This document shows positions 566 through 15,564 of a stretch of DNA of 44,463 bases, one piece after another. This stretch comes from Alphaproteobacteria bacterium (lineage in GTDB: Bacteria; Pseudomonadota; Alphaproteobacteria; RF32; CAG-239). The number at the start of each line of letters is the position of its first letter. The first letter of the stretch is position 1. Both the position numbers and the translations under genes were made by a program. The notes under the pieces are model-generated. The model was not told the origin of the DNA. It did no database searches and saw only the letters and a program-made list of their open reading frames with translations. Location of the stretch: NCBI GenBank assembly GCA_017444525.1, contig JAFSWL010000008.1, positions 1 to 44,463 of the forward strand, given 5' to 3'.

Positions 566-608
566 CGGCGGAAGTTTAAACTTATTATAGAGATAAGGAG
601 AATAGTTC

Positions 609-3600
609 ATGAAATATTCTAAGTCTGCGATAGGGCTCTTAACAGCGCAATATCGTAGTGTTTTAAAGAAATGCTGGATGATTAATGTCGGCTTATTCGC
701 GTTAGGTGCGGCATTGGCCACTCCGGCAATGTCAGAGGAATTTGATATTAAATATCTGACCGGAACATTAAAAGATGGTGATAATATTAATGTTACAGCA
801 GCCTCGCCGAGCAATCCGGTTATTGCAAAGTTGACACTTACGGCAACGGATATTAAATCAATATTGGGTAACTCTGGTTCACTTAATGCTGATACAGCCA
901 CTACTGCTACTGAAGCTGATACTGCGAACGCAGTAAGACTTAATACTGCTGTTAATACAGATGCAGGAACTTCAACCGGTAGAACAATCGGCGATTACAT
1001 TAATAAAATCACTGCTTTGGAAACAGCTGGCTATGTAACTGGCACATATGTGGATGAAAATTATGCAAAAAAGACAGATATTGCAAATGTTGCTAAAACA
1101 GACGGTTCAAGTATTTTTAGCTCGATTAAAATCGGCTCTAGTGCTTCCAACGGCGAATTATCCTATTCTAATGAGAGCGGTAAAATCTATACAGATAAAG
1201 CTTTCCAAGCGACAGGTAATTTGATCGTTAAATCTGCTACAGATAATACGGTTACAGCAGCTTTAGGTGTGGATAAGTCAGGCGCTAATAGTCGTTTGAC
1301 TGCAGATCATTTCAAAGCAACCAACCTTTATATCGGAAATAGTGATGCGATTACCGGTGTTGCTAATACAATCAGTGATACCGATACTGAAAATGTGGGT
1401 AAATTAGCCTCGGCTAGTGCTGTTAAAGCTTCTGTTGATGGTGTAAAGAATTATGCTGATGGTTTGTCGGCGGCTGTGTATGACGGCAGCAACGCATTCG
1501 CCAAATTTAAGATGGGTGAGGTTGAAGTTGACGGTATTACGGCTGCATCTACAGGTGATACTAAAAAATTGATTACCGAAACTGCGGTAGATGGTAAAAT
1601 CACTGCAGCAACTACCGATTTAAGCGCAGATGTTGCAACTTTGAAAGGTGGTAAGACTACTCCTAATTCAGTGTTATATAACATTGATAATGAAGCTGAA
1701 AACGCTAAATACACCGGCGCTGCAGCAGCTAATTCAATTGGTGCCGCTATTAAAGGCAATGCTGATAAGTTGGCCGGCTTAGTGGTTAATACAGGTGCTC
1801 AGGAAACGGTTCAAAATGCTATCAATAAAGCCAAGACCGAAGCTCAAGCATACAGCGGTACTGCTGTGTCTGAAGCAGCTACGGTCAGCGCTGCTATTGA
1901 TAAAAACGCAACCAGCATTGCTGATTTGAAAGATGCTTCCAAAGAAGGTTCAATTGCCAAATTAATTGAAGCCAATGCTAAAGATGCGACTTACAGCGGT
2001 GATATCACTATTTCTGAGGCAATTAGTGCTGCTTCCGGTTCTATCGGTACGGAAACTTTGACTAATGCTAACGGTAATTTAAATGGCGGTACCACAGGTA
2101 CATTCACCGGTTCGGTAAAAGCTGCGATTAACGGTCTGGATGCCACATTGGGTAAAATCTATGGTTTGGCAACCGGCGGAAAGGGTAACTTAGCAAGTAC
2201 CGGTGATACTGTTTCCGGTCATTTGAGTGCTTTGGACAATGCTATCGGCAACAGAACAACAGCTTATGGTACATCCAATTATGCCGCAACCGGCAATGCT
2301 GATTTGAACGTTGCTACGGCGATTAAAAATTTGGATACCGCGGTTTATAACAACCTGAACGGTATCAGCACTGCCACATTGAACATCGGCGGTTCGGCCA
2401 AAGATGTACACATCGGTCAAGACGGTCAAGGTTTGAATATTGCCTCAACCGGCGCTACTTTGCTGACTAAAGACGGTTCTTCGATAACCAATGGCCTGAC
2501 AATCGGCAGCACAACAGATGCTACTTCATCTCTCGGATATACAAACTCCGGAACTTTCAGCGGAATTAAAGTTTCCAAAACTTCTGCCAACGCTGATACC
2601 GTAACCATTACCGACGGCACAAACAATGTTGTGTTCAAAGGTGGCAAAATGACTGCCAACGGTGCAGAACTGAGCACTTTGAAAATGGGTGCCAACGAGG
2701 CTAAAGGAATTGACACCGGCACCAATTATGCGGCTACCGATGCAACAGCTCCTGCTGCTGACAATATTCAGTTGGCTTCTACCGCTACGGTTTATAACAG
2801 TGTTCATGCCTTAGCCGGCCAGATGGGCAATTTTGAAACCATTGCCAATGTTCACGGTGTTAACGGTACAGAAAGCCTCAAGTTTGGTGAAAATGCCAAT
2901 AATATCCGCATCGGTTCTGAAAATTTAATCAGCGGTAATAAAGTTCTGGCTACAGGTATTGATGTTAACGGTTTAGTCTCAGGCACCAGAGGCATTAATC
3001 TGCGCGTAGCCAACGGCGACAGCTCGGATAATAATACCAGTGTAAATGTTACGGAAAGCCAAGTTAAATTAGGCAGTACCGTAAGCGGAAAATTCTATGG
3101 TATTACGTCTAATTATGACAGTACGGTACCGGCTGATTCTTCAATTAAGTTCAGCAGCGATGATAAGTACGTAGAAGTTAAAGGCGGTAATTTGAACGCT
3201 ACCGGCGATATTAAGACGGCTACCGGCACAGTTGAAGGTGCACATCTCAAAGCTACCACAGATTTGAAGATTGGTGATTCCACTCCGGTTGTTGGCGTAG
3301 ATGCCGGCACTGATGATTTGGATAACACTGCTGATAATACAATATTGGCTTCGGCTAAGACAGTGTATAGAGCAATGTCTTCAGCTCAGGGATATACTCC
3401 GGCTGACGCTTTAAAAGCTGGTACACATATCTTTAACGGTGTTACCACCAACAAAGCTGCGTTAGATATTGTCGGCACCAAATTGGATGGTTTGACCATG
3501 GCTGACGGCACAACAGCTGCTGCAACGGTACAAGCTGCTTTGCAAGATGTTAAATCTGCTGCAGATACGGCAGTTAATAATTTGAAGGACGGCGATGTTG

Positions 3601-6600
3601 CTGCTAACAAGGCAAAATTGGCCGGTTTGAATGCCGGCGAAACGGCTAATCCGACAGTTCAGGACGCTATTAACTATGCAAAGGCACAGGCTGGTGTATA
3701 TACATCTGCTACCGGTATGCAAGATGAAGGCAAAATCTTCAATGGTCTGACAACATTTACCGATGCTATGGATGCAGCCGGTGCTGGAATCATGGCTAAT
3801 ACAGCTCGTTTTGCCGGATTTGCCAGTGGTACGCAGACTGTTGCTGAATATGTTGACGCCAATGCTAAAGACGCTACTTACAGCGGTTCGGGCGGAACCA
3901 AAGTAACCATTGCTCAAGAAATCGCAAAGAAAGCCAATACGGCTGATTTGAAGACCGCAGCATATCGCAATGTTGCAGCTGACTTTACTCCGGTTCCTAC
4001 GGATTATCATGATACGGATATAGCTACTTGGGTTGCAGATAATGATACCAATATTGCTGATGTGACAACAACATTCAAGGTATTGTCGAAGAAACTTTCT
4101 ACTGTTCAGCATGATTTGATGGATAACGGTGACAACGCATCCTCCATTGCTCGTGCTTTAGGCGGTACTGCAGCAACCGATACCTTGCCGGGTATGGTTC
4201 AAAAGCTTGCCTTAAACGCTCCTTACAGCTCAACGGCTACTTATGACGAAGGCTCTATCGGCGAAGCAGTTCAAAAAAATACTGCTAAGTTCGGCGATTT
4301 GGGTACCAACACGGTTGCACAAGCAATTGCTGCTGCCGGTGCATCTGCTGATGGCAAATATGTTGCTAAAACAGATTTGACACCGGCTAACGGTCAAGTT
4401 GTTTTAGGTCATGCTTCTACCGATAACTACAACGATAAAGGTACAGATTTCACTGTTAATACTGCTGACAGCACGATTAAGGCTACTGTATTTAAGCCTT
4501 CGTCTGCTTCGGATATGACCAAAAAAACATCAACCATGGAAATGGATAAAGATGGCGTTACCTTTACTACTGCTGAAGTAGAAACCAGTGGTACAACCAC
4601 CAAGACAGCCAGCATTAAAGATGGTGTTGTTTCTGCTGAAGGCTTGAAGCTCGGTACCAACGACGTTACTTCGATTGACAGCGGTGAGGCTCTGGATATT
4701 ACCACAGACGTAGCTGCCGCCGACAAGAAAGTAATGGCTACCGACGCTGCAGTTAAGGCAACTGTTAAGGCTTTGGCTGAAGGCGCTGTTGCTACTAATA
4801 CGGCAAACATTGCTAAGAATACGGCTCGTTTCGGTGCCGGTGCTAACTTGCCGGCATTTGTTGACAATCAAACCGTTGCCGATTATTTGGAAGCTAACGC
4901 TGACAGCGCTAAACACGGCGACACCACAATCGGTGGTGCTATTACAGCTAACACCACGAAATTGGCCGGTTTGACCAATGATACGGTTCAAGAGTCCATT
5001 AATGCCGCTAAATCCGGCTTGGATACTCGTATCAATAAAGTATTGAGCGGCAACACACTTATTAATAAAGTAACCGGTACTAACGGCGAAGCTATGATTT
5101 TCAATGAAAGTGATGGCGGCGGTGCTATGTTTACACACAAGACCGGTGACGTAGTAGACGGTAAGTCTTATGTAGGTGTACATGACGGTAGCTCTAACTT
5201 GGATATCGGTGCTCAGATTTATGTATTAGACGGTTCTGATAGCGGTGTAAGATTAAACGCTAATATGAACGGTATCTACTATGTTAAAGGTGCAGCAGGT
5301 CAGGGTAATCCGGCAAAAGCCGAAATCGTTACTTTGGGAACAGCTCAGAATGCTGATTACACTCAACCGACGGATGCTCGTACTTCTATCGGTAATGCAA
5401 ACACCATTCAGGGCGCTATTGACGCCGTAGCTGCTGCTACCGACACCAATACAACCAACATCGATACCAACACGCAAGCTATTGCTACGTTGAACGGCGG
5501 CAAGACAGTTGAAAACTCTGTTGATTACAAAGTTTACAACAACGCTAAAGACGCACTTTATAAAGCAGGAACAGGTGGTGCTGAAGATATAACCATCGCT
5601 CAGGCTATTGACGCAGCTAGTCAAGGTGCATCTGACGCTTTGGCTAAAGTTCTGAACGGTGAAACAGCATTTAGCAAGCTGAGCTTGGGTACAGGTGCTG
5701 ATGATGATTGGAGTATGGACAAGAATGTTGCCGGAAACCTCGTTATTCGTAACGGTGGAAAACCTGTTGTAGGTATGGATAAAACCGGCTTGTTCACACT
5801 CAGTGCCATAGCTGACGGACAATCCAAACAATATTTGGCTGCCGGAAATGGTTACTTTAAGCTGTCTAAAGACGGTGGAGATCCATATTTGCATGCATCA
5901 AACTCTACTTTTGCATTGTATGACAGCGAAGGTAAACCGAGATTCTTGGTTGATAATGCAACCGGTAACGTTTCTGCAAGAGGTAGCTTGACATTGAATG
6001 ATGGCACAGCTTCTGCTCCGCAAGAATTAACGGCTGCAAAGATTGAACAAATCACTACAAATAAAGATGCTATTGATTTGTTGAATGACGCTGACACCGA
6101 AGCCGGTTCTGTAAAGAACAGCATTAAGACTTTGGCTGAAAAAGCTACATATACACCGGCTACAGGTGAAGAAAGCGCAGCTGTAATCACAGCTCAGGCT
6201 AACACCATTAACGGCGCTATCTTGGCTTTGGATAAAAACGCTGTAGCTACTAATAACGCTATCGGTAATATAAATAACCTGCACGGTGATGACAACGCGA
6301 TGATGGACTACAGCGGCAATACACCGGTTGAGGCTGCCAACATTGTTGAAGCAGTTAACAACATTTCGGCTACCTTGGGTACCATTCACGGTTTGAAAGC
6401 TTCTGTTGAAAACGGTGATTTCGATGCAGAAGGCAGCACATGGTATAAAGACGGTGCGGGCAACTTGTTTGCCGGTTCGGAAGTCGACGACCACTTGGCT
6501 GAATTGGCTGCTTCTATCGGCAACAGAAACTATGCTGCGGATACTCCGTATTTGACAGCTAATGAAAGCGTTGCTACTTCGTTGACCGTATTGGCTAACA

Positions 6601-9600
6601 ATTTGAAGGGTGTTGCTGATGGCTATGTAACCAAAGAATACTTCAACGGCGGTACGGCTACAACTCCGGCGACGATTTCGATGGGCGCAAATGCTTCTGA
6701 TATCGTAATCGGTCATGTTGCTGCTTCTGATACCGATACAGGTACAACCTTCGATGTTAACCACGCAGCCGGTACAATTACCAGCAGTGTAGTTACCGCA
6801 GGTGCTGTAGGCGGTGCTGCTCCGACCACAACAACAACCGAGTTGTCTAAGGACGGCTTCAAAGTTACCAACGGCGGTAAGACTGTTACCGTTGCCGGTG
6901 GCGATGTTGCAACCGATAGCGTTACTATTACCAACGGTGCTCAGATTCATGGCAGTGAAGGTACAACAATCATTGAGGGAACAACCCTTGTTAATGGTAG
7001 TGTATCCGCTGTTAAGAGCTTATTTGCCGGCGAAAACTTAGGTGTAACCGGTGATACTACACTTGGTGGTAAGTTAGCCTTCGGTGGTAATCAGTTTACA
7101 ACTACTGCTTTGGCTATCAGTTCGGCGTCGACCGATGCTGAATTGCCGACAGCTAAGGCAGTTTATGATGTTGTTAAGGCTGAAACCACGGTTGAAGCCG
7201 CTGCTAACGGCAACTATGCTGCCGGTTCGGTTAAAGACGCTTTGAATACTGTTGACAGCAGAATGGGTAATGTTTCTTGGTATAAGAACAGCACACACTA
7301 TGCTAACCCTAACTCTACGGCAGGCTTGAGCTTGTCTGCAGCTATCAGAAATATTGATGCTAATGTTTATGCTAAAGTCGGCGCTGTTGACTTTGCTGAC
7401 ACCATGAACTATGTATCTTCTGCTGATACTGACCTGACAACGGCCATTAAGAGCATGGATACCAATGTTAAGGCTGCTATCGATAATTTGGACGGCACAT
7501 ATGTTACCAAAGATTACTTCAATGGTAAGGGCGGTGCCGCAGTTAAGATGGGCATTTCTTCAAATGACATCGAAATCGGTAAGCAAAACTTTGACGGTGA
7601 GGGTAATCCGACCGGTCTGATTTCCGGTATCAAGATTGCCAGCGACGCAACTGCAGGTAATACAATTTCTATCGGCAGCAACAATGGTCAAACCTTTAAT
7701 GGTATCGAGTTGTCCGACTCCGGTAAAACTGCTACCTTCAAAGGCACAAATAACGATGTTGAAATCAAAGACGGCGAAGTTACAGCTGAAAAAGCTACGG
7801 TTAAGACTTTGGCCTTTACCGACGGCGCAGCTACTAATCCGACCATTACAACAGCTACATCTGTTGATAATACTGGTAAGGACGTTTTGGCTGCCGGTGT
7901 AACCGCTGACGGCGAAGAACTCGCTTCTACGCTGACAGTTAAGAACACTGTTGCAGGCGCTGTTAATGTTGAAGCCGCTGCTAACGGCAACTATGCCGCA
8001 GGTACGGTTAAGACCGCAGTTGCAGACATTGATGCCGCAATCGGTAACAGAGATTATGCTGAAGGTACACCTTATCTGCATGATAATGAAAGCGTTGCCA
8101 CATCACTCACAACATTGGCCGGTGCTATTGACGGCGTTGCCAAAGATTATGTGAAGACTTCTTACTTCAATAACGGTGATGATAACGGTCTGATTTCTAT
8201 GGGTTCGGGCGCTACCACCATTCAAATGGGCAAGGTTGATGCTGCATCCGGCTTGAACGGTATCATCATCAACAATTCTGCTGATGACAAGACCATCAAG
8301 ATTGGTAACAACACCCAAAACGTAACGGTTGACGGCGGTGATTTGACCGCTACCGGTGCAGTTAAGGCTGCAAGCTTTAAGATTGGCGAGAGAGAAGTTA
8401 CTTCTATTGACGCAGGTGCGGCTCTGAGTTACAGTGCTGACGCTGCTGACGCCGATAAGAAAGTAATGGCTACAGACGCTACCGTAATCAATACGGTTAA
8501 GGCTTTGGCTGAAGGCGAAGTTGCTACTAATACGGCAAACATTGCTAAGAATACGGCTCGTTTCGGTGCCGGTGCTAACTTGCCGGCATTTGCTGACAAT
8601 CAAACCGTTGCCGATTATTTGGAAGCTAACGGTGCAAAAGCTCAGTATAAGGGTGGAAACACCATTGCTGATGTATTTGATGCTATTACCAAAGATAACG
8701 GTAAACGCATTTATAACGTGGTAACCGGTACCAATGGTAAAGCTTTAATTTTCAACGAAAAAGACGGCGGCGGTGCTAAGTTTGAACACACCGACGGTAC
8801 TTGGTCGGCAGTTGCCGTTAATGATGGCGGTGCAACCGGTATTGCAGCACAAATCTATGCTATTAATAACGGAACCAAGAAAGGTACTCGTTTGAATGTT
8901 ACCACCAACGGTATGTTCTATACCAACGGTGCAACAAGCGCTGCTTATGAAGCAATTGATGAATTGGTAACATTGAGAACGGCTGAAAACGCTGTTTATA
9001 CTCCGGGTACGGACGCAGTTGCTACAAAAGATGCTGAAACCGTTAACGGTGCTATTATGGCTCTGGACGGCGCAGTTGATGCAAACGCTAAAGAAATCGC
9101 CAAGAGAAAGATTACGATTTCTAAAGCGACTGTCGGCAATACCGATGAAGTCGAACTCGCTACCATTGAAGACGGTACTGCAGAAGATACTGCTGTTGTG
9201 TTGACACTTGCCGGCGCAACCAAGATATTTGATGCCAAGCAAGGTTGGATGGATAGCGTATTCGGTATCGATTCTGACAGCATCACTCCGTATGCAACCG
9301 CATTCAACGGTGCTAAGAACATCAATCTTGAAGGCGTAACCATGACAAGCTCTATTATGGACTTGGATGGCGCTATTGCTGATAGAAAACTCTACAACGG
9401 TACGCACTATGCAAATCCGAATTCGGCTGCAGATGCAGATCCGATTAGCTTGTCACAAGCCATCAAGAATATTGATGATAATGTATTTGCTAAAGTAGGT
9501 ACTGTTGACTTGTCTACGGCTACCAACTATGCCAATACGACGACTGATCCTGCTACCAACTTGACACAGGCTGTTGTTAACATCGATAAGAATGTTAAGG

Positions 9601-12600
9601 CCGAAATCAATAGTTTGGATAACAAGTTCGTTACCAAAGATTACTTTAATAACGGCGAACCGGCTCAGATTGATGACGGAACAGGCACAATGATTGATAA
9701 TCCGAATGCCGGCTTGATTTCGATGGGTTCGGGTGCAACTCAAATTAACATCGGTAAGACAGTTCCGGCAGGAACTCCTACTTCTGCAGTACTTGATTCC
9801 GGCTTGTCTATCAACAACACCAACGGCGATGTAATGCTCGGTCAAATTTCTCAAGTTGGCTCAGGTGCAACCGCTAAGAGTGTGGTTGAAACCGGTCTTA
9901 ATGTTGATAACACCAATTACACCGCAAGCCTTATCTCGGCTAACGGCCAATCCAGTATTAATGCGGTTGATGTTAACCGGACCACGATTAAAATCGGTAT
10001 GACTACCACCGATAACAGCGGTAATCCGTTGTTCTCCGGTGTTTCGATTAACAATGGTGTTATGACCAACGCTGATCCGGCAGATGCCAACAAGAAAGCA
10101 ACCTTTGCTTCTGACGAAGTTAAAGTTGCTTCCAGCGCGACGGATTACACTTCGACTACAGCAGCTGGTACGACTGTTACCAAGAAAGACGGTGACAAGA
10201 CCTACACAGCAAATATGGCTGCTGATGAAGTTAGCGTAGCCGACGGTACAAACACTGCTTCGGTTAAGGCTGATGAAATGAGCGTAGCCGACGGTAATGG
10301 TAACTCTGCTTCGGTTAAAGCTGATAAAATGTCTGTAACCGACGGTACCAACACTTCGTCAATGACCGCTACCACTGTATCGCTTGCTGATACGTCAGGT
10401 AAATCCAACACCATCACTAAGACTGGTATGACGATTGCTGACGGTACAACTGCTAGTGCGAATGTAACTTCGGTTGAAGCTACCGGTGTAACAGTAACCA
10501 ACGGTACTAGTACCACCACGGTTGCTGCTGACGGCGTAACTTCTTCTAAGTTTGCCTTCAATGCTAATGATTATGCAACCGGTATTGATGCGGGTTCTGA
10601 TTTAACAGATCCGAACACAACGGCTACAATCGATGGTCACACCATTGCTACAACAGCTACGGTTAAGGCTTCTGTTGACGGTATGGTTGCCGATATCGAG
10701 AAGCAAATCCACGGTGATGGTCCGGCTTCAACGGTTAATATCGGTGATAAAGCAGGCACAACCTTCATCGGCGAGACCTATAAGGATATGGCCGGTAAAG
10801 AACAAGTTGCCGGTGGTATGGCTGTTCGCATGACCTACGAAGATCCGGCGGCCGATCCGGCAGTTGTTACCAACCGTGAAGTTGAAATCACTGCATTGTT
10901 GAACGATGGTTCCGGTGTAAGCGTTGACTTGAATGCTGATAATCAAACCATTGATTTAGTCGCTGCCGGTGATGATGACGATTCTGCAACCGGTGTTCGT
11001 ATTAACCACAAGAATCAGACGATTACGCTGGTTTCTGCTGATGAAGATACGGAACAAACAACCGGTGTTGAAATCAACAACAAGAATGGTACAATTGCTA
11101 TTTCTTCGGCTAACGATGATGATCATACCGCAACCGGTTTGAGCATTGTTAACGACAAGGCAAATAACAAACATACCATTGACTTGGCTTACAATAATAC
11201 AACCAGTGGTACTTCTCAAGGCTTGAGTATTGATGCTGATGAACAGTCCTACAGCTTAGGCTCTACCGATGTTACCAACAGTAAATTCTCCGGTTTGGAT
11301 ATCGACGCTGCCGAAAATACCTATGCTTTAGGTAAAGGCACGATTGATGACCAAGGTGAGTTTACACTTGACTATGGTATGACCATGGATGCAGAAAACG
11401 GCGTTACCACATTTGCTAACAAAGAAGGTAAGGGTGTTACCATGAATAAGGGTGACATGACCGTTACCGACAGCGCAACGGTTGGCTCTGTTGATGCTCA
11501 AGGCAAATTGTCCGGTGTTAAACTTGACAAGTCCGGTACGGCTCAGGCTTCTGAGAGCGTTACTGCAGGTCAGGTTGACGGTGACGGTAAGTTGAGCGGC
11601 AACGGCGTTCAAATGAAGAACGACGGCTCTGCTACCTTTGCTGCTGAAGAAGGCAATGTTAATATAGCTAAGGGCTCTGTCCAAGCTGATAACAGTGCTT
11701 TAATCGGCAATAAGGATACCGATGACGAAAACTACATCGAATTTGCCATGAATTCGGAAACCGATCCGGATACAGGTGCAGAAACTAAGAGTGCAGTTGC
11801 TACCTTTGCTTCTTCTGACGGCAATGTTGAAATTGCTAAAGGCGAAGTTACGGCTGATAAGAAAGTTACGGTTGGTGATGATACCAACAGCGTTGTCTTG
11901 GATAAAGACGGTAACATTGCCGCTACCAGCAGTGCTTTGATCGGTTCTGAAACCGACGATGGTCAAGGTAACAAGACTTTGACCGGTGTTAAACTCGACA
12001 AAGACGGCAATGCACAAGCTTCTAACAGCATCTTGGCCGGTACGGAAACCGACGATGGTCAAGGTAACAAGACTTTGACCGGTGTTAAACTCGATAGAGA
12101 CGGTAACGCTACCGCTTCTAAGAGCGTAAACGTTGGTGATACTACAGGTACTGATTATGCCAGCATCGCTAAAGATGATGAAGGCAAAGTAACCGCTACC
12201 TTCGCTTCTGAAGCCGGTAATGTTGTAATTGCCGACGGTGAAGTAACGGCAGACAAGAAAGTTACGGTCGGTGAGGATAAAGTCGTTTTGGATGACGAAG
12301 GTAATATCACTGCTGATAAAGACCTGACGGTTAAAGGTTTGGGTACATTCGGCAAAGATAAGAAAGTCGTAATCAACGAAGGCGATATCAATGCTGACGG
12401 TACGGTTACGGGCGACAAGCTTGTTGCTAACACCGAATTCGAATTGGCTGGTACAAAAGTTCACTCGATTGATACCGGTACGGCTAAAGTTGAAGAAAGC
12501 GGCGATGTATTGGCTACCACGGCTTCTATCTTTAGAAATGCCGAGGACGGTGATTACAACGCAGCTGAAGGTACTTATACCACGGTTGATGCTACAACCA

Positions 12601-13310
12601 TTAATGAGGCTTTGACCGCAGTTGATAACATCATCGGTAACTTCCCTGATGGTTTGAACTACGATAATCACAACCTCGACAATGGCGGTCAGGCTAAACC
12701 TGAAAACATTGTTGATGCCTTCAATAACATTGACGCTACTTTGGGTCAAATCCACGGTTTGGCTGCAAAAGTCGGTGTTGAAAACGGCAGTATGAACCTC
12801 GGTCAAAACACAACGGTTGAAGAACACTTGACCGCTTTGGCAGGCTCTATCGGTAACAGAACCAGCTACACAGAACAGAACGTTATCAAGAATAATGAAT
12901 CTGTTGCTAAATCGCTGGATGCTCTCGATATGGCTGTTGGTGATGTGTCTAAACTGCAGGGTACGGCCTTTGCAAATGCCGGCAATCTGTCTGACGCGGT
13001 TGTCCAAATCGACGATAAGTTGCAGAACTTGGATGGTCGTGTAGAATCCGTAGAACACGATTTGAAGGATGTTCACCACGAATTGCGTAGAGGTATGGCT
13101 TCCATGGCTGCTATGTCGGCTTTGGTACCGAACTCTCGCTCTACGGGTAAGACTTCACTCTCGCTCGGTACGGGTGCTTATAGCGGACACGCAGCTGTCG
13201 CTCTCGGTGGTTTCCACTACCTGACCGACAACTTGATGCTCAATGCGGGTGCCGCATGGAGCAACAGCCGCGATGCTGTTTACCGTGTAGGTGTAACGTA
13301 TTCATTCTAA
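609..13310 (+). CDS. Giant trimeric autotransporter adhesin (YadA-type anchor), 4233 aa
   Basis: Surface-exposed, secreted by the type Vc route. Residues 1-42 form an extended signal peptide: a basic start, a hydrophobic core (VGLFALGAALA) and a likely cut after AMS. The last ~90 residues are a YadA anchor: a helix (RVESVEHDLKDVHHELRRGM), then four amphipathic beta strands ending VYRVGVTYSF with the terminal Phe used for outer-membrane insertion. The ~4000-residue passenger is Ala/Thr/Asp/Asn-rich with recurring motifs such as NTARFGAGANLPAF, NESVATSL, SIGNR and YVTKDYFN. I do not see canonical YadA head repeats (SVAIG). Residues ~3150-4000 are short beta-type repeats. ATG 609 follows AAGGAG by eight bases. 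The 12.7-kb frame is intact and visibly less AT-rich than its surroundings. A terminator follows at 13333, then a probable membrane partner. Host ligand unknown; the adhesin role is inferred from family. Confidence 0.93.
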   Translation: MKYSKSAIGLLTAQYRSVLKKCWMINVGLFALGAALATPAMSEEFDIKYLTGTLKDGDNINVTAASPSNPVIAKLTLTATDIKSILGNSGSLNADTATTATEADTANAVRLNTAVNTDAGTSTGRTIGDYINKITALETAGYVTGTYVDENYAKKTDIANVAKTDGSSIFSSIKIGSSASNGELSYSNESGKIYTDKAFQATGNLIVKSATDNTVTAALGVDKSGANSRLTADHFKATNLYIGNSDAITGVANTISDTDTENVGKLASASAVKASVDGVKNYADGLSAAVYDGSNAFAKFKMGEVEVDGITAASTGDTKKLITETAVDGKITAATTDLSADVATLKGGKTTPNSVLYNIDNEAENAKYTGAAAANSIGAAIKGNADKLAGLVVNTGAQETVQNAINKAKTEAQAYSGTAVSEAATVSAAIDKNATSIADLKDASKEGSIAKLIEANAKDATYSGDITISEAISAASGSIGTETLTNANGNLNGGTTGTFTGSVKAAINGLDATLGKIYGLATGGKGNLASTGDTVSGHLSALDNAIGNRTTAYGTSNYAATGNADLNVATAIKNLDTAVYNNLNGISTATLNIGGSAKDVHIGQDGQGLNIASTGATLLTKDGSSITNGLTIGSTTDATSSLGYTNSGTFSGIKVSKTSANADTVTITDGTNNVVFKGGKMTANGAELSTLKMGANEAKGIDTGTNYAATDATAPAADNIQLASTATVYNSVHALAGQMGNFETIANVHGVNGTESLKFGENANNIRIGSENLISGNKVLATGIDVNGLVSGTRGINLRVANGDSSDNNTSVNVTESQVKLGSTVSGKFYGITSNYDSTVPADSSIKFSSDDKYVEVKGGNLNATGDIKTATGTVEGAHLKATTDLKIGDSTPVVGVDAGTDDLDNTADNTILASAKTVYRAMSSAQGYTPADALKAGTHIFNGVTTNKAALDIVGTKLDGLTMADGTTAAATVQAALQDVKSAADTAVNNLKDGDVAANKAKLAGLNAGETANPTVQDAINYAKAQAGVYTSATGMQDEGKIFNGLTTFTDAMDAAGAGIMANTARFAGFASGTQTVAEYVDANAKDATYSGSGGTKVTIAQEIAKKANTADLKTAAYRNVAADFTPVPTDYHDTDIATWVADNDTNIADVTTTFKVLSKKLSTVQHDLMDNGDNASSIARALGGTAATDTLPGMVQKLALNAPYSSTATYDEGSIGEAVQKNTAKFGDLGTNTVAQAIAAAGASADGKYVAKTDLTPANGQVVLGHASTDNYNDKGTDFTVNTADSTIKATVFKPSSASDMTKKTSTMEMDKDGVTFTTAEVETSGTTTKTASIKDGVVSAEGLKLGTNDVTSIDSGEALDITTDVAAADKKVMATDAAVKATVKALAEGAVATNTANIAKNTARFGAGANLPAFVDNQTVADYLEANADSAKHGDTTIGGAITANTTKLAGLTNDTVQESINAAKSGLDTRINKVLSGNTLINKVTGTNGEAMIFNESDGGGAMFTHKTGDVVDGKSYVGVHDGSSNLDIGAQIYVLDGSDSGVRLNANMNGIYYVKGAAGQGNPAKAEIVTLGTAQNADYTQPTDARTSIGNANTIQGAIDAVAAATDTNTTNIDTNTQAIATLNGGKTVENSVDYKVYNNAKDALYKAGTGGAEDITIAQAIDAASQGASDALAKVLNGETAFSKLSLGTGADDDWSMDKNVAGNLVIRNGGKPVVGMDKTGLFTLSAIADGQSKQYLAAGNGYFKLSKDGGDPYLHASNSTFALYDSEGKPRFLVDNATGNVSARGSLTLNDGTASAPQELTAAKIEQITTNKDAIDLLNDADTEAGSVKNSIKTLAEKATYTPATGEESAAVITAQANTINGAILALDKNAVATNNAIGNINNLHGDDNAMMDYSGNTPVEAANIVEAVNNISATLGTIHGLKASVENGDFDAEGSTWYKDGAGNLFAGSEVDDHLAELAASIGNRNYAADTPYLTANESVATSLTVLANNLKGVADGYVTKEYFNGGTATTPATISMGANASDIVIGHVAASDTDTGTTFDVNHAAGTITSSVVTAGAVGGAAPTTTTTELSKDGFKVTNGGKTVTVAGGDVATDSVTITNGAQIHGSEGTTIIEGTTLVNGSVSAVKSLFAGENLGVTGDTTLGGKLAFGGNQFTTTALAISSASTDAELPTAKAVYDVVKAETTVEAAANGNYAAGSVKDALNTVDSRMGNVSWYKNSTHYANPNSTAGLSLSAAIRNIDANVYAKVGAVDFADTMNYVSSADTDLTTAIKSMDTNVKAAIDNLDGTYVTKDYFNGKGGAAVKMGISSNDIEIGKQNFDGEGNPTGLISGIKIASDATAGNTISIGSNNGQTFNGIELSDSGKTATFKGTNNDVEIKDGEVTAEKATVKTLAFTDGAATNPTITTATSVDNTGKDVLAAGVTADGEELASTLTVKNTVAGAVNVEAAANGNYAAGTVKTAVADIDAAIGNRDYAEGTPYLHDNESVATSLTTLAGAIDGVAKDYVKTSYFNNGDDNGLISMGSGATTIQMGKVDAASGLNGIIINNSADDKTIKIGNNTQNVTVDGGDLTATGAVKAASFKIGEREVTSIDAGAALSYSADAADADKKVMATDATVINTVKALAEGEVATNTANIAKNTARFGAGANLPAFADNQTVADYLEANGAKAQYKGGNTIADVFDAITKDNGKRIYNVVTGTNGKALIFNEKDGGGAKFEHTDGTWSAVAVNDGGATGIAAQIYAINNGTKKGTRLNVTTNGMFYTNGATSAAYEAIDELVTLRTAENAVYTPGTDAVATKDAETVNGAIMALDGAVDANAKEIAKRKITISKATVGNTDEVELATIEDGTAEDTAVVLTLAGATKIFDAKQGWMDSVFGIDSDSITPYATAFNGAKNINLEGVTMTSSIMDLDGAIADRKLYNGTHYANPNSAADADPISLSQAIKNIDDNVFAKVGTVDLSTATNYANTTTDPATNLTQAVVNIDKNVKAEINSLDNKFVTKDYFNNGEPAQIDDGTGTMIDNPNAGLISMGSGATQINIGKTVPAGTPTSAVLDSGLSINNTNGDVMLGQISQVGSGATAKSVVETGLNVDNTNYTASLISANGQSSINAVDVNRTTIKIGMTTTDNSGNPLFSGVSINNGVMTNADPADANKKATFASDEVKVASSATDYTSTTAAGTTVTKKDGDKTYTANMAADEVSVADGTNTASVKADEMSVADGNGNSASVKADKMSVTDGTNTSSMTATTVSLADTSGKSNTITKTGMTIADGTTASANVTSVEATGVTVTNGTSTTTVAADGVTSSKFAFNANDYATGIDAGSDLTDPNTTATIDGHTIATTATVKASVDGMVADIEKQIHGDGPASTVNIGDKAGTTFIGETYKDMAGKEQVAGGMAVRMTYEDPAADPAVVTNREVEITALLNDGSGVSVDLNADNQTIDLVAAGDDDDSATGVRINHKNQTITLVSADEDTEQTTGVEINNKNGTIAISSANDDDHTATGLSIVNDKANNKHTIDLAYNNTTSGTSQGLSIDADEQSYSLGSTDVTNSKFSGLDIDAAENTYALGKGTIDDQGEFTLDYGMTMDAENGVTTFANKEGKGVTMNKGDMTVTDSATVGSVDAQGKLSGVKLDKSGTAQASESVTAGQVDGDGKLSGNGVQMKNDGSATFAAEEGNVNIAKGSVQADNSALIGNKDTDDENYIEFAMNSETDPDTGAETKSAVATFASSDGNVEIAKGEVTADKKVTVGDDTNSVVLDKDGNIAATSSALIGSETDDGQGNKTLTGVKLDKDGNAQASNSILAGTETDDGQGNKTLTGVKLDRDGNATASKSVNVGDTTGTDYASIAKDDEGKVTATFASEAGNVVIADGEVTADKKVTVGEDKVVLDDEGNITADKDLTVKGLGTFGKDKKVVINEGDINADGTVTGDKLVANTEFELAGTKVHSIDTGTAKVEESGDVLATTASIFRNAEDGDYNAAEGTYTTVDATTINEALTAVDNIIGNFPDGLNYDNHNLDNGGQAKPENIVDAFNNIDATLGQIHGLAAKVGVENGSMNLGQNTTVEEHLTALAGSIGNRTSYTEQNVIKNNESVAKSLDALDMAVGDVSKLQGTAFANAGNLSDAVVQIDDKLQNLDGRVESVEHDLKDVHHELRRGMASMAAMSALVPNSRSTGKTSLSLGTGAYSGHAAVALGGFHYLTDNLMLNAGAAWSNSRDAVYRVGVTYSF
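4764..4898 (+). repeat. Passenger repeat copy A (135 bp, near-identical to 8496-8630)
   Basis: This stretch encodes VKALAEGAVATNTANIAKN and continues to YLEAN. Against 8496-8630 I count three base differences in 135. The copies lie 3732 bp (1244 codons) apart and in frame. Similarity continues at protein level downstream (VTGTNGEAMIFNE versus VTGTNGKALIFNE), so the exact block sits inside a larger, older duplication. Confidence 0.9.
8496..8630 (+). repeat. Passenger repeat copy B (135 bp, near-identical to 4764-4898)
   Basis: Second copy of the block described at 4764-4898. Synonymous positions are identical almost throughout, while flanking sequence has diverged. That suggests recent gene conversion or recombination between the two passenger segments rather than selection on protein sequence alone. 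Confidence 0.9.
10215..10390 (+). repeat. Short tandem repeats in the adhesin passenger (SVADGTNTASVKAD type)
   Basis: Three to four consecutive units of about 17-19 residues run VSVADGTNTASVKADE, MSVADGNGNSASVKADK, MSVTDGTNTSSMTATT and a weaker VSLADTSGK. At DNA level the units share GTAGCCGACGGTA and GCTTCGGTTAA blocks. They look like stacked beta units of a trimeric stalk. Confidence 0.7.
11949..12140 (+). repeat. 96-bp tandem duplication in the adhesin passenger
   Basis: The segment encoding ETDDGQGNKTLTGVKLD occurs at 11949 and again at 12045, an in-frame period of 96 bp (32 residues). The first ~50 bases of the two units are identical except at the end. Such repeats are prone to expansion and contraction, so the protein length may vary between strains. 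Confidence 0.85.
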
Positions 13311-13332
13311 TTTTAGTATGAAACCAAAAAAT

Positions 13333-13361
13333 ACGGGGAGGGGAAACTCTCCCCGTGTTTT
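13333..13361 (+). terminator. Rho-independent terminator after the adhesin gene
   Basis: ACGGGGAG (13333-13340) pairs with CTCCCCGT (13349-13356), followed by GTTTTT. It starts 22 bases after the adhesin stop and ends less than 20 bases before the next ATG, overlapping the leader of that gene. Partial read-through would give a fixed low ratio of the downstream protein to the adhesin. Confidence 0.85.
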
Positions 13362-13378
13362 TGAAAGAAGAGGATATT

Positions 13379-14110
13379 ATGGCTCGTAAGAAAAAAGAAA
13401 AAGCGGAAATAAGACAATTAGCATTGATTGAAGCAGCAAAAATAGCCGCAGTTCAGCAAGCGCAAGCCCAGCCGGCTCCGGTGCAAGAAACAGCTCCGGC
13501 GGCTCCGGTGCAAGAAACAACTCCGATTCAACCGACTCCGGTTCAAGCAGCTCCGGCAGCTCAAATTCCGTCCGCACCGGCTGTACAGCTACAGGTTACA
13601 CCTAAAGTGTCGTCAGGATTAGGTTTTAAGTGGTTTGCATTGTTGATGATTTTGGTACTGTTGGTCGGAAATGTTTTTTCGTTGTATCAACTGCAGCAGT
13701 TAGAAAAACGTGTTTCACATGATAGCAATATTTATGTGTATAGTATGGAAAATGTGCTGCTTTTGGCCGGTATGGCAGAAGAAAACAAAGAGTATCAAAT
13801 AGAATTTGACAAGTTGGCAAAAGATATTGATGCTGCTCAGAAAAAATTGAACAGCATCAAAGATAAAAAACTTAGGCAGGAATATTCTGAGGTTTATATG
13901 AAATCGTTGCAGTTAAAACGCGATACACTGGTCGAAACTCACGATAAATTTAAGGCAGATTTGTTGAAGAATATTAATCGTGCGCTTTTAGCTGTAACCG
14001 AAAAATACAATGCTCCGACAATATTCTATGCCAAATCAATCGCCGTGCATACACCGAATGTGGTGGATGTAACCGACGAAATTTCAAAATATCTTAAAGA
14101 TACAATGTAA
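13379..14110 (+). CDS. Single-pass inner-membrane protein with periplasmic helical domain; possible adhesin partner
   Basis: I do not recognise the family. The start at 13379 follows GAAGAGGA and gives MARKKKEK. The 243 residues comprise a strongly basic N-terminus, an Ala/Pro/Gln-rich linker (residues ~35-70) containing a 9-residue tandem repeat APVQETAPA/APVQETTPI (27-bp DNA period), one hydrophobic segment (~80-100, WFALLMILVLLVGNVFSLYQ) and a ~140-residue C-terminal domain predicted to be mostly helical with coiled-coil character. By the positive-inside rule the C-terminus is periplasmic. Its position directly behind the giant adhesin recalls Salmonella SadB and Acinetobacter TpgA, small periplasmic or membrane helpers encoded beside trimeric autotransporters. 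It is not homologous to them by eye, so the helper role is inference from context. Confidence 0.6.
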   Translation: MARKKKEKAEIRQLALIEAAKIAAVQQAQAQPAPVQETAPAAPVQETTPIQPTPVQAAPAAQIPSAPAVQLQVTPKVSSGLGFKWFALLMILVLLVGNVFSLYQLQQLEKRVSHDSNIYVYSMENVLLLAGMAEENKEYQIEFDKLAKDIDAAQKKLNSIKDKKLRQEYSEVYMKSLQLKRDTLVETHDKFKADLLKNINRALLAVTEKYNAPTIFYAKSIAVHTPNVVDVTDEISKYLKDTM

Positions 14111-14173: not shown

Positions 14174-15031
14174 TTAAATCCGGTGCGCAGATTGCAGAAA
14201 CTCTTTGACTTTGGGTAGAGCTTTAAGCGCATCTTCGCAACCAAGATTATAAACCGTTTGCAAAACTTCCGTATTATGCTCTGTATGGCGGATTTTAATT
14301 TCCCGACTCGGACGAATTACCAATGCCGTACCTTCTTTTTGGCTGTTTTCAATGTCTTTTAACTCTTGATTATACATTAGATGCCGGTTGATTACGGCAT
14401 TGGCAAACTTAGGATATTTGCGATACATAATTTTTGCCAGCCACGCCAATTTATTTTTCTTCTTTGTATATCCGGTAGCTCTGGTCTGCACTACCACACA
14501 GCGTTCGTATCCCATATTTTGAAAAGCGCGCAAGGGAATACTGTCAGCAATTCCGCCATCAAGATATTTGCAGTTGCCGATTTGGCTTATTTTCGATACA
14601 AACGGCATAGAGGCCGAGGCACGTATATAAGGCAATTTGGTTCTTAATTCATTGCAATATATATATTCGGCCTGTCCGCTTTCCAAATTTGTGCAAGTGG
14701 CATAGAATTTGGTAGGTGAAGCCTCAAAGGTCTGATGATCAAATGGAAATAACTTTTCCGGTAGGTCATGATAACAAAATTGTTCCCCCACCAAATTGCC
14801 GGTAGTCAGCCATGAATAAAAACTCATATAACGTCTGTCATTGGCATATTTAAGTGTGTAACCGATACTCCGTCCTTTTTGCTTTGAGACAAAAGCGCAA
14901 CCATGAATTGCACCGGCAGAAACTCCGACCACACCGTCAAAAATTATGTCGTTTTCATTAAATACATCAAGTACACCGGCTGTATATATGGCTCGATGCG
15001 CTCCTCCTTCCAATACCAACCCTGTTTTCAT
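14174..15031 (-). CDS. Patatin-like phospholipase (YjjU-type)
   Basis: This is a cytoplasmic serine hydrolase of the patatin family, expected to release fatty acids from phospholipids. I chose ATG 15031 (MKTGLVLEGGAHRAIYTAGV), which gives 285 residues and puts the oxyanion-hole motif EGGAHR at residues 8-13, as usual. The nucleophile elbow GVSAG (Ser38) and the catalytic Asp in YLDGG (Asp158) are both present, so the Ser-Asp dyad is intact. There is no signal peptide. Its ATG overlaps the stop of the upstream gene as ATGA, so the two are translationally coupled. The bidirectional terminator at 14143 ends the transcript. Substrate is unknown; membrane lipid turnover is a family-based guess. 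Confidence 0.88.
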   Translation of the reverse strand: MKTGLVLEGGAHRAIYTAGVLDVFNENDIIFDGVVGVSAGAIHGCAFVSKQKGRSIGYTLKYANDRRYMSFYSWLTTGNLVGEQFCYHDLPEKLFPFDHQTFEASPTKFYATCTNLESGQAEYIYCNELRTKLPYIRASASMPFVSKISQIGNCKYLDGGIADSIPLRAFQNMGYERCVVVQTRATGYTKKKNKLAWLAKIMYRKYPKFANAVINRHLMYNQELKDIENSQKEGTALVIRPSREIKIRHTEHNTEVLQTVYNLGCEDALKALPKVKEFLQSAHRI

Positions 15032-15564
15032 CTTAAACCGCAGGTAATGAGCTGATTGAATTTGGTTTGGAAATTGCGATTCGGATATTTGATTTTGCGT
15101 CGGTGCTGGGAAAAGCAATAGCCGTTTCGTAAATTTCCGCGATGATATTTAAACTTGCCGCGCAATTTACCTTTCTTATCATAAATATCAACACTTCCGT
15201 GTAATAAACCGCCGACATAAGGAGCTGATATCCAGACTCTACCGTTATCGTGATAAAAATAATTAATCCCGTCCATAACTCCTTTTTTATACACAGTTCT
15301 TTCTACCATTCGCCGCTGATCGTCCAAGACAAAATTTTCACCGTTACGATAGCCGTTCTTAAACTCACCGATACCGGCAATTGAACCGTCATCGCGCATA
15401 ATGGCGATTCTACCGTCTAGAGCGTGTCCTTTTTCAGAGGTACAGTATTCTCTTTTACTTTTTTCGGTACAAGAAATTTTTTGAGCTTTAAGCGCGCGTG
15501 CGTGCGCCGATAACATATCGGAGCCGAACAACAAAAAACAAGCTAAAATCAATCGTAACAGCAT
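15028..15564 (-). CDS. Secreted MORN/YwqK-like repeat protein
   Basis: The 178-residue product starts with a signal peptide (LRLILACFLLFGSDMLSAHA). The rest contains MORN-like units such as GEFKNGYRNGENFVLDDQRR, VYKKGVMDGINYFYHDNGR and APYVGGLLHGSVDIYDKKGK, each with the G-x-x-x-G-x-x-x-x-[YF] rhythm of the YwqK-type repeat family. Four cysteines (two near the N-terminus of the mature protein, two near the end) could form disulphides in the periplasm. It ends in an ATGA overlap with the patatin gene and lies 26 bp after a helical protein gene, so all three probably form one operon. YwqK-type repeats are sometimes annotated as antitoxin components, but nothing here supports a toxin-antitoxin role. 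Confidence 0.7.
   Translation of the reverse strand: MLLRLILACFLLFGSDMLSAHARALKAQKISCTEKSKREYCTSEKGHALDGRIAIMRDDGSIAGIGEFKNGYRNGENFVLDDQRRMVERTVYKKGVMDGINYFYHDNGRVWISAPYVGGLLHGSVDIYDKKGKLRGKFKYHRGNLRNGYCFSQHRRKIKYPNRNFQTKFNQLITCGLR

Follow-up and report, generated by a model that had tools for sequence, protein, structure and literature searches.

Type V secretion still poses the question of how three chains of more than 4000 residues cross the periplasm unfolded and trimerise in register, and this question is raised by a locus in the window, that is, the whole stretch of 44,463 nucleotides analysed in this work. The locus probably constitutes a two-gene type Vc unit, in which a giant trimeric autotransporter (TAA) with an ESPR-like leader is encoded beside a private, membrane-tethered holdase of the Skp type, an organization resembling SadA/SadB with an unrelated partner. 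Since one Skp-type partner accompanies each adhesin, the question of how the periplasm is crossed becomes testable here, and the pairing also opens to experiment which clients a partner accepts, how trimer is matched to trimer, and whether a membrane tether is needed. The interest of the locus lies in this private partner together with the leader, neither of which figures in the initial annotation, more than in the motifs of the passenger.

The Giant Adhesin Gene

A single open frame with an ATG start (609..13310, + strand), preceded by a ribosome-binding site visible in the sequence (AAGGAG, 595..600, + strand), encoded an adhesin of 4233 aa. Its N-terminus displayed a basic stretch followed by a hydrophobic core, as judged by reading and hydropathy only, and its C-terminus (aa 4174-4233; 13128..13307, + strand) matched the YadA membrane anchor PF03895 (E 2.5e-11 in the Pfam search with the whole protein; 52.7 bits in a separate scan). 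The sole match in a PDB sequence search was YadA (2lme), at the anchor. The initial annotation had called a type Vc anchor and a signal peptide; the former was confirmed by the C-terminal PF03895 match, and the latter agrees with the signal-like N-terminus. Judged by frame and anchor, the product is a giant trimeric autotransporter of type Vc, ordinary in kind.

In the comparison with the closest relative, RUG13901 (L017:609-9652), dN/dS was 0.17/0.61 in the C-terminal segment, and two segments of the passenger gave 0.53/1.20 and 0.34/0.69, the second of the three segments in this order being near saturation. These substitution rates indicate purifying selection. In RUG13901 the anchor lies in a frame other than that of the passenger, so that an open frame is not universal; the split reflects either an assembly error or decay. 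The earlier argument that a gene open over 12.7 kb must be under selection therefore held as regards the open frame and the purifying dN/dS, but not as a general property of these genes.

The Passenger

No Pfam head or stalk family was matched in the 4233 aa, in agreement with the missing YadA head pointed out previously: PF05658 and PF05662 (YadA head and stalk, respectively) were absent from the passenger and gave no row on the contig of the adhesin (C6). Nothing except the anchor exceeded the Pfam cut-offs with the whole protein, and when it was cut in ten pieces all non-anchor matches remained under the cut-offs (best 0.006). NCBIfam gave no match, PHROGs none better than 0.015, and the PDB sequence search nothing convincing in the passenger beyond the anchor.

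The recurring motifs described in the initial annotation were found only one to three times each, but internal matches revealed real, diverged modules. Motif counts gave TARF three times (twice as NTARFGAGANLPAF), NESV three times (NESVATSL twice and NESVAKSL once), KDYFN twice, YFN four times, and VADG three times, with the full VADGTNTASV once. The best internal pair reached 72% over 98 aa (aa 1339-1436 and 2583-2680), and the second 50% identity over about 110 aa, corresponding to two copies of a duplicated domain (copy 1, aa 1481-1590; 5049..5378, + strand; copy 2, aa 2698-2803; 8700..9017, + strand). The remaining pairs were mostly 20-50% identical, the weak ones being inflated because the self-comparison was run without composition correction.

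A seed HMM delimited seven beta-plus-neck modules, all on the + strand: module 1 (aa 626-736; 2484..2816), module 2 (aa 800-927; 3006..3389), module 3 (aa 1264-1390; 4398..4778), module 4 (aa 2032-2155; 6702..7073), module 5 (aa 2337-2451; 7617..7961), module 6 (aa 2526-2634; 8184..8510), and module 7 (aa 3243-3360; 10335..10688). These units scored 1e-27 to 1e-37 with the HMM made from the same seven, and an extra stretch (3907-3973) appeared at 1e-4; as such an HMM scores its own seeds by construction, the values describe the modules and are not a test of them. A short beta-repeat stalk was recognised by internal matches (aa 3641-3943; 11529..12437, + strand; tandem repeat at 11942-12125), and a membrane-proximal stalk (aa 3998-4173; 12600..13127, + strand) was common to paralogues.

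With regard to the nature of these modules, we slightly favour ordinary TAA elements (beta-rolls, necks, and coiled coils) that have diverged too far for Pfam, with nothing new in them. The composition of the passenger and its alternating beta and coiled-coil stretches argue in this direction, as does the statement in PMC7247746 that TAA modules can retain their fold at around 20% identity. The searches above, in which nothing beyond the anchor exceeded the cut-offs (Pfam, NCBIfam) or was convincing (PHROGs, PDB), weigh against it, together with the lack of a match between the neck-like motif and canonical necks in hhalign, a comparison of low power made with five canonical necks only. A monomer fold prediction of aa 2476-2830 (16 rows) was poor (mean pLDDT 62.8), and with folds kept at such low identity the sequence searches do not establish new modules; hence the passenger is non-canonical as far as matches in Pfam, NCBIfam, PHROGs, and PDB sequences are concerned, but the novelty of its modules was left unsupported. 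A derivation of the modules from trimeric phage tail fibers appears quite improbable: aa 2128-2216 weakly matched the receptor-binding protein BPP of phage TP901-1, but the E-values were marginal (0.0085 with a 141-aa query and 0.077 with a 1400-aa query), the same segment had no tblastn match in 50,697 phage records, and the PHROGs matches of 12 neck segments were all above 0.09.

The Downstream Skp-Like Protein

The second gene (13379..14110, + strand) began 68 nt past the adhesin stop codon and encoded a protein of 243 aa, predicted to be membrane-tethered and identified as OmpH/Skp-like by family profile, structural model, and Foldseek. It consisted of an N-tail, a predicted transmembrane helix (aa 85-103; 13631..13687, + strand; hydropathy 2.23 over 19 aa), and a coiled coil carrying a small, conserved body on its C-terminal side, the Skp-fold domain covering aa 118-242 (13730..14104, + strand) according to the model, whose best Foldseek matches were Skp/OmpH structures. 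Accessory genes of this kind were collected by reading downstream of 40 anchor frames, duplicates included and six stretches ending too soon; 29 of the proteins were used for the alignment and HMM (A6), and L060, L144, and L145, cut by the fetched stretch, were left out.

At E <= 1, PF03938 (OmpH) was matched by 25 of the 29 accessories, with 2.9e-14 as the best value; the protein encoded in the window, taken alone, was not among them. The accessory profile matched E. coli Skp in the PDB (1sg2 at 2.5e-4 and 1u2m at 2.6e-4). The model (mean pLDDT 82.5) ran helix, strand, helix, helical hairpin, strand, strand, helix, and had the topology of Skp, a small beta body with a helical hairpin. Foldseek ranks 1-9 were chains of Skp (1sg2, 1u2m), of the OmpH-like 4kqt, and of 8gl8, a type 9 translocon complex including SkpA in which the subunit of the matched chains is not stated; 4 of the 83 matches had E <= 0.001, and TM-scores by query length were 0.26-0.36 for ranks 1-9. 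Given these low TM-scores and the lack of an own PF03938 match, the assignment of the downstream protein to the Skp/OmpH family is based on family profile and fold.

All 29 accessories contained a TM-like stretch (19 residues, mean hydropathy > 1.6), which was followed by an AxA pattern in only two, so that by hydropathy it does not read as a cleaved signal. When whole proteins were searched, a strict lipobox was found in none of the 29 and a loose pattern in six; the window's own protein is devoid of Cys. The partner thus shares family profile, topology, and C-terminal motif with Skp/OmpH. In Skp the signal peptide is cleaved and the clients are many, whereas the partner is predicted to keep its N-terminal TM, its N-tail differs in length between members, and it goes with a single client gene. 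SkpA of the type 9 extended translocon (8gl8) is likewise a Skp-type protein in an export complex, in another secretion system and phylum. In Veillonella parvula four Skp genes are reported, three of them downstream of BamA, and that account, as far as accessible, mentions no pairing with a TAA (PMC5491611).

Pairing of the Anchor and the Skp-Like Gene

YadA anchors gave 33 rows, distributed over 16 of the 27 genomes of the genus. For 32 of these anchors an accessory HMM match on the same strand followed within 600 nt, and a Skp-like gene was read next to the 33rd (G026:C28) in L145. Because the HMM was built from TAA-adjoining genes, matches at those loci arise partly by construction, and the reverse count is therefore the better test: 31 of the 33 accessory matches above 100 bits adjoined an anchor. 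The two strong matches without an anchor were G003:C87 and G019:C11, the latter with a short-frame leader upstream. Ten of the 11 anchor-free genomes had only weaker matches (1e-16 to 1e-21), and the remaining one, G019, had the strong match. Matches below 100 bits occurred in 26 of the 27 genomes, the sole match in G005 being TAA-linked; the general Skp is presumably among these weaker matches. By gene order and profile matches, anchor and Skp-like gene are paired in this genus.

YadA anchors were present in 15 of 385 genomes of the class (own included). An accessory match was obtained at one of 26 anchor loci elsewhere in the class (L177, G233:C12, family f91; 2.1e-22, with 1.3e-57 for the own-genome control L001 in the same scan), these loci including some with short downstream stretches or doubtful anchors, such as L168, which reads like a porin. 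In family f91 the accessory gene stood at one of seven TAA anchor rows.

In a Rickettsiales MAG (L039), the gene next to the TAA (L039:10577-11125) reads by eye like a secreted protein with an OmpA C-terminal domain. TpgA is the peptidoglycan-binding partner of AtaA, and we take the L039 neighborhood to resemble the AtaA/TpgA arrangement.

The Intercistronic Hairpin

The spacer between the two genes contained a terminator-like hairpin (13327..13362, + strand), formed by GGGGAG and CTCCCC with a T run; the stretch 13308-13385 gave -26.6 kcal/mol and z -4.59. Such a hairpin was found by the terminator criterion applied in 25 of 31 spacers (shuffles: mean 0.22, maximum 2, 100 rounds), a count in which seven of the 31 spacer lengths were set by hand and a few rows are near-duplicates; the other six spacers failed the same criterion. 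Homologues covaried, with two-sided changes in 11 of the 14 pairs and a covariation score of 0.466 vs. 0.292 in shuffled and 0.15-0.25 in slid alignments. This alignment comprised 19 of the 31 spacers, two of them shortened, and none of the six failing ones, so that the covariation describes the hairpin only where it is present. Rfam gave no match within the window. The counts and the covariation point to a conserved hairpin between the genes.

The N-Terminal Leader

An extended leader (about aa 1-42; 609..734, + strand), which recurs on numerous type V proteins within the genus, preceded the passenger and carried C22, the sole Cys in the 4233 aa of the adhesin. Its layout, by sequence reading only, was two-part (N1-H1-N2-H2), on carriers of types Va, Vc, and probably Vb. 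The first 46 aa gave 101 matching rows in 26 of the 27 genus genomes (E <= 0.01; the weakest rows doubtful). Positions L11, Y15, L19, K21, C22, and N26 were invariant in the leader alignment, which comprised 43 of the 101 rows, these having been found by similarity to the window's leader.

Forty leader carriers were fetched from the genus, 29 of which were longer than 300 aa and terminated by a stop codon; the C-termini of these 29 corresponded to an Autotransporter barrel in 21 cases, a YadA anchor in two, and neither in six. Of these six, L064 ended early in its own frame, and neither L087 (3413 aa, searched whole) nor L096 (2877 aa, last 330 aa) had a recognised C-terminal translocator in Pfam. 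The other three, the leader proteins L075, L076, and L077 of around 5000 aa, were followed by a ShlB/FhaC-type gene (E 2.9e-32, 1.8e-31, and 1.3e-31, respectively) and then, in L153, L154, and L155 (the same units, in three genus genomes), by an OmpH-like third gene (E 3.3e-8 in L153, the one scanned). The Pfam TpsA domain was not matched in L075, so its Vb status derives from the downstream ShlB/FhaC gene. These units are, from their gene content, probable two-partner (Vb, TpsA/TpsB) systems with a Skp-like third gene of their own.

Within the class the leader was found in 11 of 385 genomes, own included (E <= 0.01), and beyond the genus, rows of convincing strength (4e-5 or better) came solely from families f74 and f91. 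Twelve carriers were fetched from outside the genus, of which two ran off their contigs, seven were Va, and three Vc; 10 of the 12 had a Cys at the leader position (by reading). Matches beyond the class, in 4 of 397 phylum genomes besides the own one, had E > 0.001 and frames of no more than 181 aa and were taken as chance.

The leader lay upstream of 37 of 101 classical autotransporter (Va) rows, in the same frame in 35; by rank, the 37 comprised 35 of the top 53 rows and 2 of the other 48. Only 5 of the 33 Vc anchors shared an open frame with a leader, a count limited by the many Vc frames that run into contig ends. Eight TAAs had their start judged in view, five with the leader (G000:C6, G001:C23, G009:C19, G011:C2, and G022:C54) and three without it (G000:C29, G007:C5, and G007:C1), which indicates that leader and chaperone are separable. 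Many TAA frames stopped at contig ends (for instance G000:C3 and G000:C32), and L020 and L021 opened with identical sequence; it seems that shared repeats interrupt the assemblies and thereby conceal N-termini.

The ESPR is known only from the beta/gamma group, and one paper reportedly calls it phylogenetically restricted in its title. PF13018 (ESPR) was over the cut-off in none of the 27 genus genomes, the E. coli control being over it, and was absent from the families matched by the 43 leaders at E <= 10. The ESPR is described as a conserved 25-residue extension before an ordinary signal peptide, across type V subtypes (PMC8151025). Like it, the leader is a conserved N-terminal extension common to type V subtypes; unlike it, the leader does not match PF13018, presents other conserved residues, Cys among them, and occurs in Alphaproteobacteria.

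The leader might instead be a lineage-specific long signal peptide, inherited as type V genes were duplicated and shuffled, and serving Sec targeting only, a possibility to which we give appreciable but lesser weight. It would fit with the limited share of Va rows that have the leader upstream and with the three TAAs that manage without it, and some proteins are secreted unchanged after ESPR deletion, according to PMC8151025. It fits less well with six invariant positions, including the Cys, in 43 of 43 rows (even if these were found by similarity), with the Cys retained in most carriers outside the genus, and with the presence of the leader on proteins of unrelated C-termini in three families of the class. 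If the leader does act in an ESPR-like way, the task of the ESPR would have been solved twice, by unrelated means.

Proposed Assembly and Comparison with Known Systems

From these features we infer a scheme in which the leader would engage Sec and slow or hold the chain at the inner membrane, where the Skp-like protein would sit by its uncleaved N-terminal helix. Tethered in this way, and trimeric if it behaves like Skp, it would catch three chains at the Sec exit and bind them as clients, preventing their folding and preserving their register up to the point at which the C-terminal anchors form a trimer and are inserted via BAM. The passenger would then thread outward and fold into a fiber, putatively adhesive. 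The hairpin may act as a partial terminator, holding chaperone output below that of the adhesin. Taken together, the adhesin, the adjoining partner gene and the leader hint at an assembly line devoted to giant surface proteins.

SadB is an inner-membrane periplasmic protein encoded beside the TAA SadA, proposed to aid the trimerisation and export of the three chains (PMC3953254); similarly, the TAA gene of the window adjoins a gene for a putative inner-membrane periplasmic helper. SadB, a lipoprotein that includes a MATH-like part, is encoded on the upstream side, whereas the window's partner is predicted to be TM-tethered, is Skp/OmpH-like and is encoded downstream; unlike SadA/SadB, a partner of the window's type accompanied all 33 TAA anchors found in the genus. 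BadA (3082 aa) is a long TAA with a beads-on-a-string organization (PMC7247746), a plan shared by the window's adhesin, which is longer (4233 aa, with 5196 aa reached in L062) and has no recognised head or stalk families. In a literature search by title and start of abstract, with subscription journals mostly outside its coverage, no TAA-Skp unit and no such leader were described.

The downstream protein could also be no export helper at all, serving instead in the envelope as a tether that holds the completed adhesin in place or as a link across the periplasm, in the manner of TpgA for AtaA. We regard this as unlikely. Its predicted TM and coiled coil could indeed span part of the periplasm, and the OmpA C-terminal-like gene after the L039 TAA indicates that other TAAs may pair with envelope tethers. 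However, the folded part of the window's protein is Skp-like by both profile and fold, no peptidoglycan-binding family appeared among the matches listed (25 of 126 Pfam families), and the probable TpsA/TpsB units have an OmpH-like third gene although their secreted protein has no anchor to fix. The holdase reading may extend beyond the window: with slightly less than an even chance, an independently evolved, ESPR-like leader with a conserved Cys singles out giant proteins of types Va, Vb, and Vc, and TAAs and probable TpsA/TpsB systems are coupled to private Skp-type holdases dosed by a conserved terminator.

Host and Related Loci

The assembly containing the window comprised 1.58 Mb in 50 contigs and was 86% complete. 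The C-terminal 236 aa of the adhesin had matches in 16 of 57 genomes, own included, all of them in one genus (27 genomes). Among 23 named loci related at the C-terminus, 18 had RUG or RGIG names and 12 mentioned a ruminant organ in the title; the titles mostly referred to Alphaproteobacteria, Rhodospirillales, or a proteobacterium, and L039 to Rickettsiales. Because of these names and titles, the host is probably an uncultured alphaproteobacterium of the ruminant gut. Canonical YadA heads occurred in the same genus, in frames with the same leader as the adhesin, which indicates that a single lineage contains passengers of both sorts. The suggestion, put forward earlier, of a separate family of gut-type adhesins accordingly finds support in the RUG/RGIG names of its relatives but not in the composition of the genus, where canonical heads coexist.

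Rows of the YadA stalk family PF05662 were seen in 24 of the 27 genus genomes, mostly in frames of 135-325 aa; the copy in the own genome (L139, G000:C36:26288-26398; 242 aa) resembles a phage tail-fiber protein on reading. Adjoining the adhesin unit in the window, a patatin-like phospholipase with DUF6363 is encoded on the opposite strand (14174-15118, - strand).
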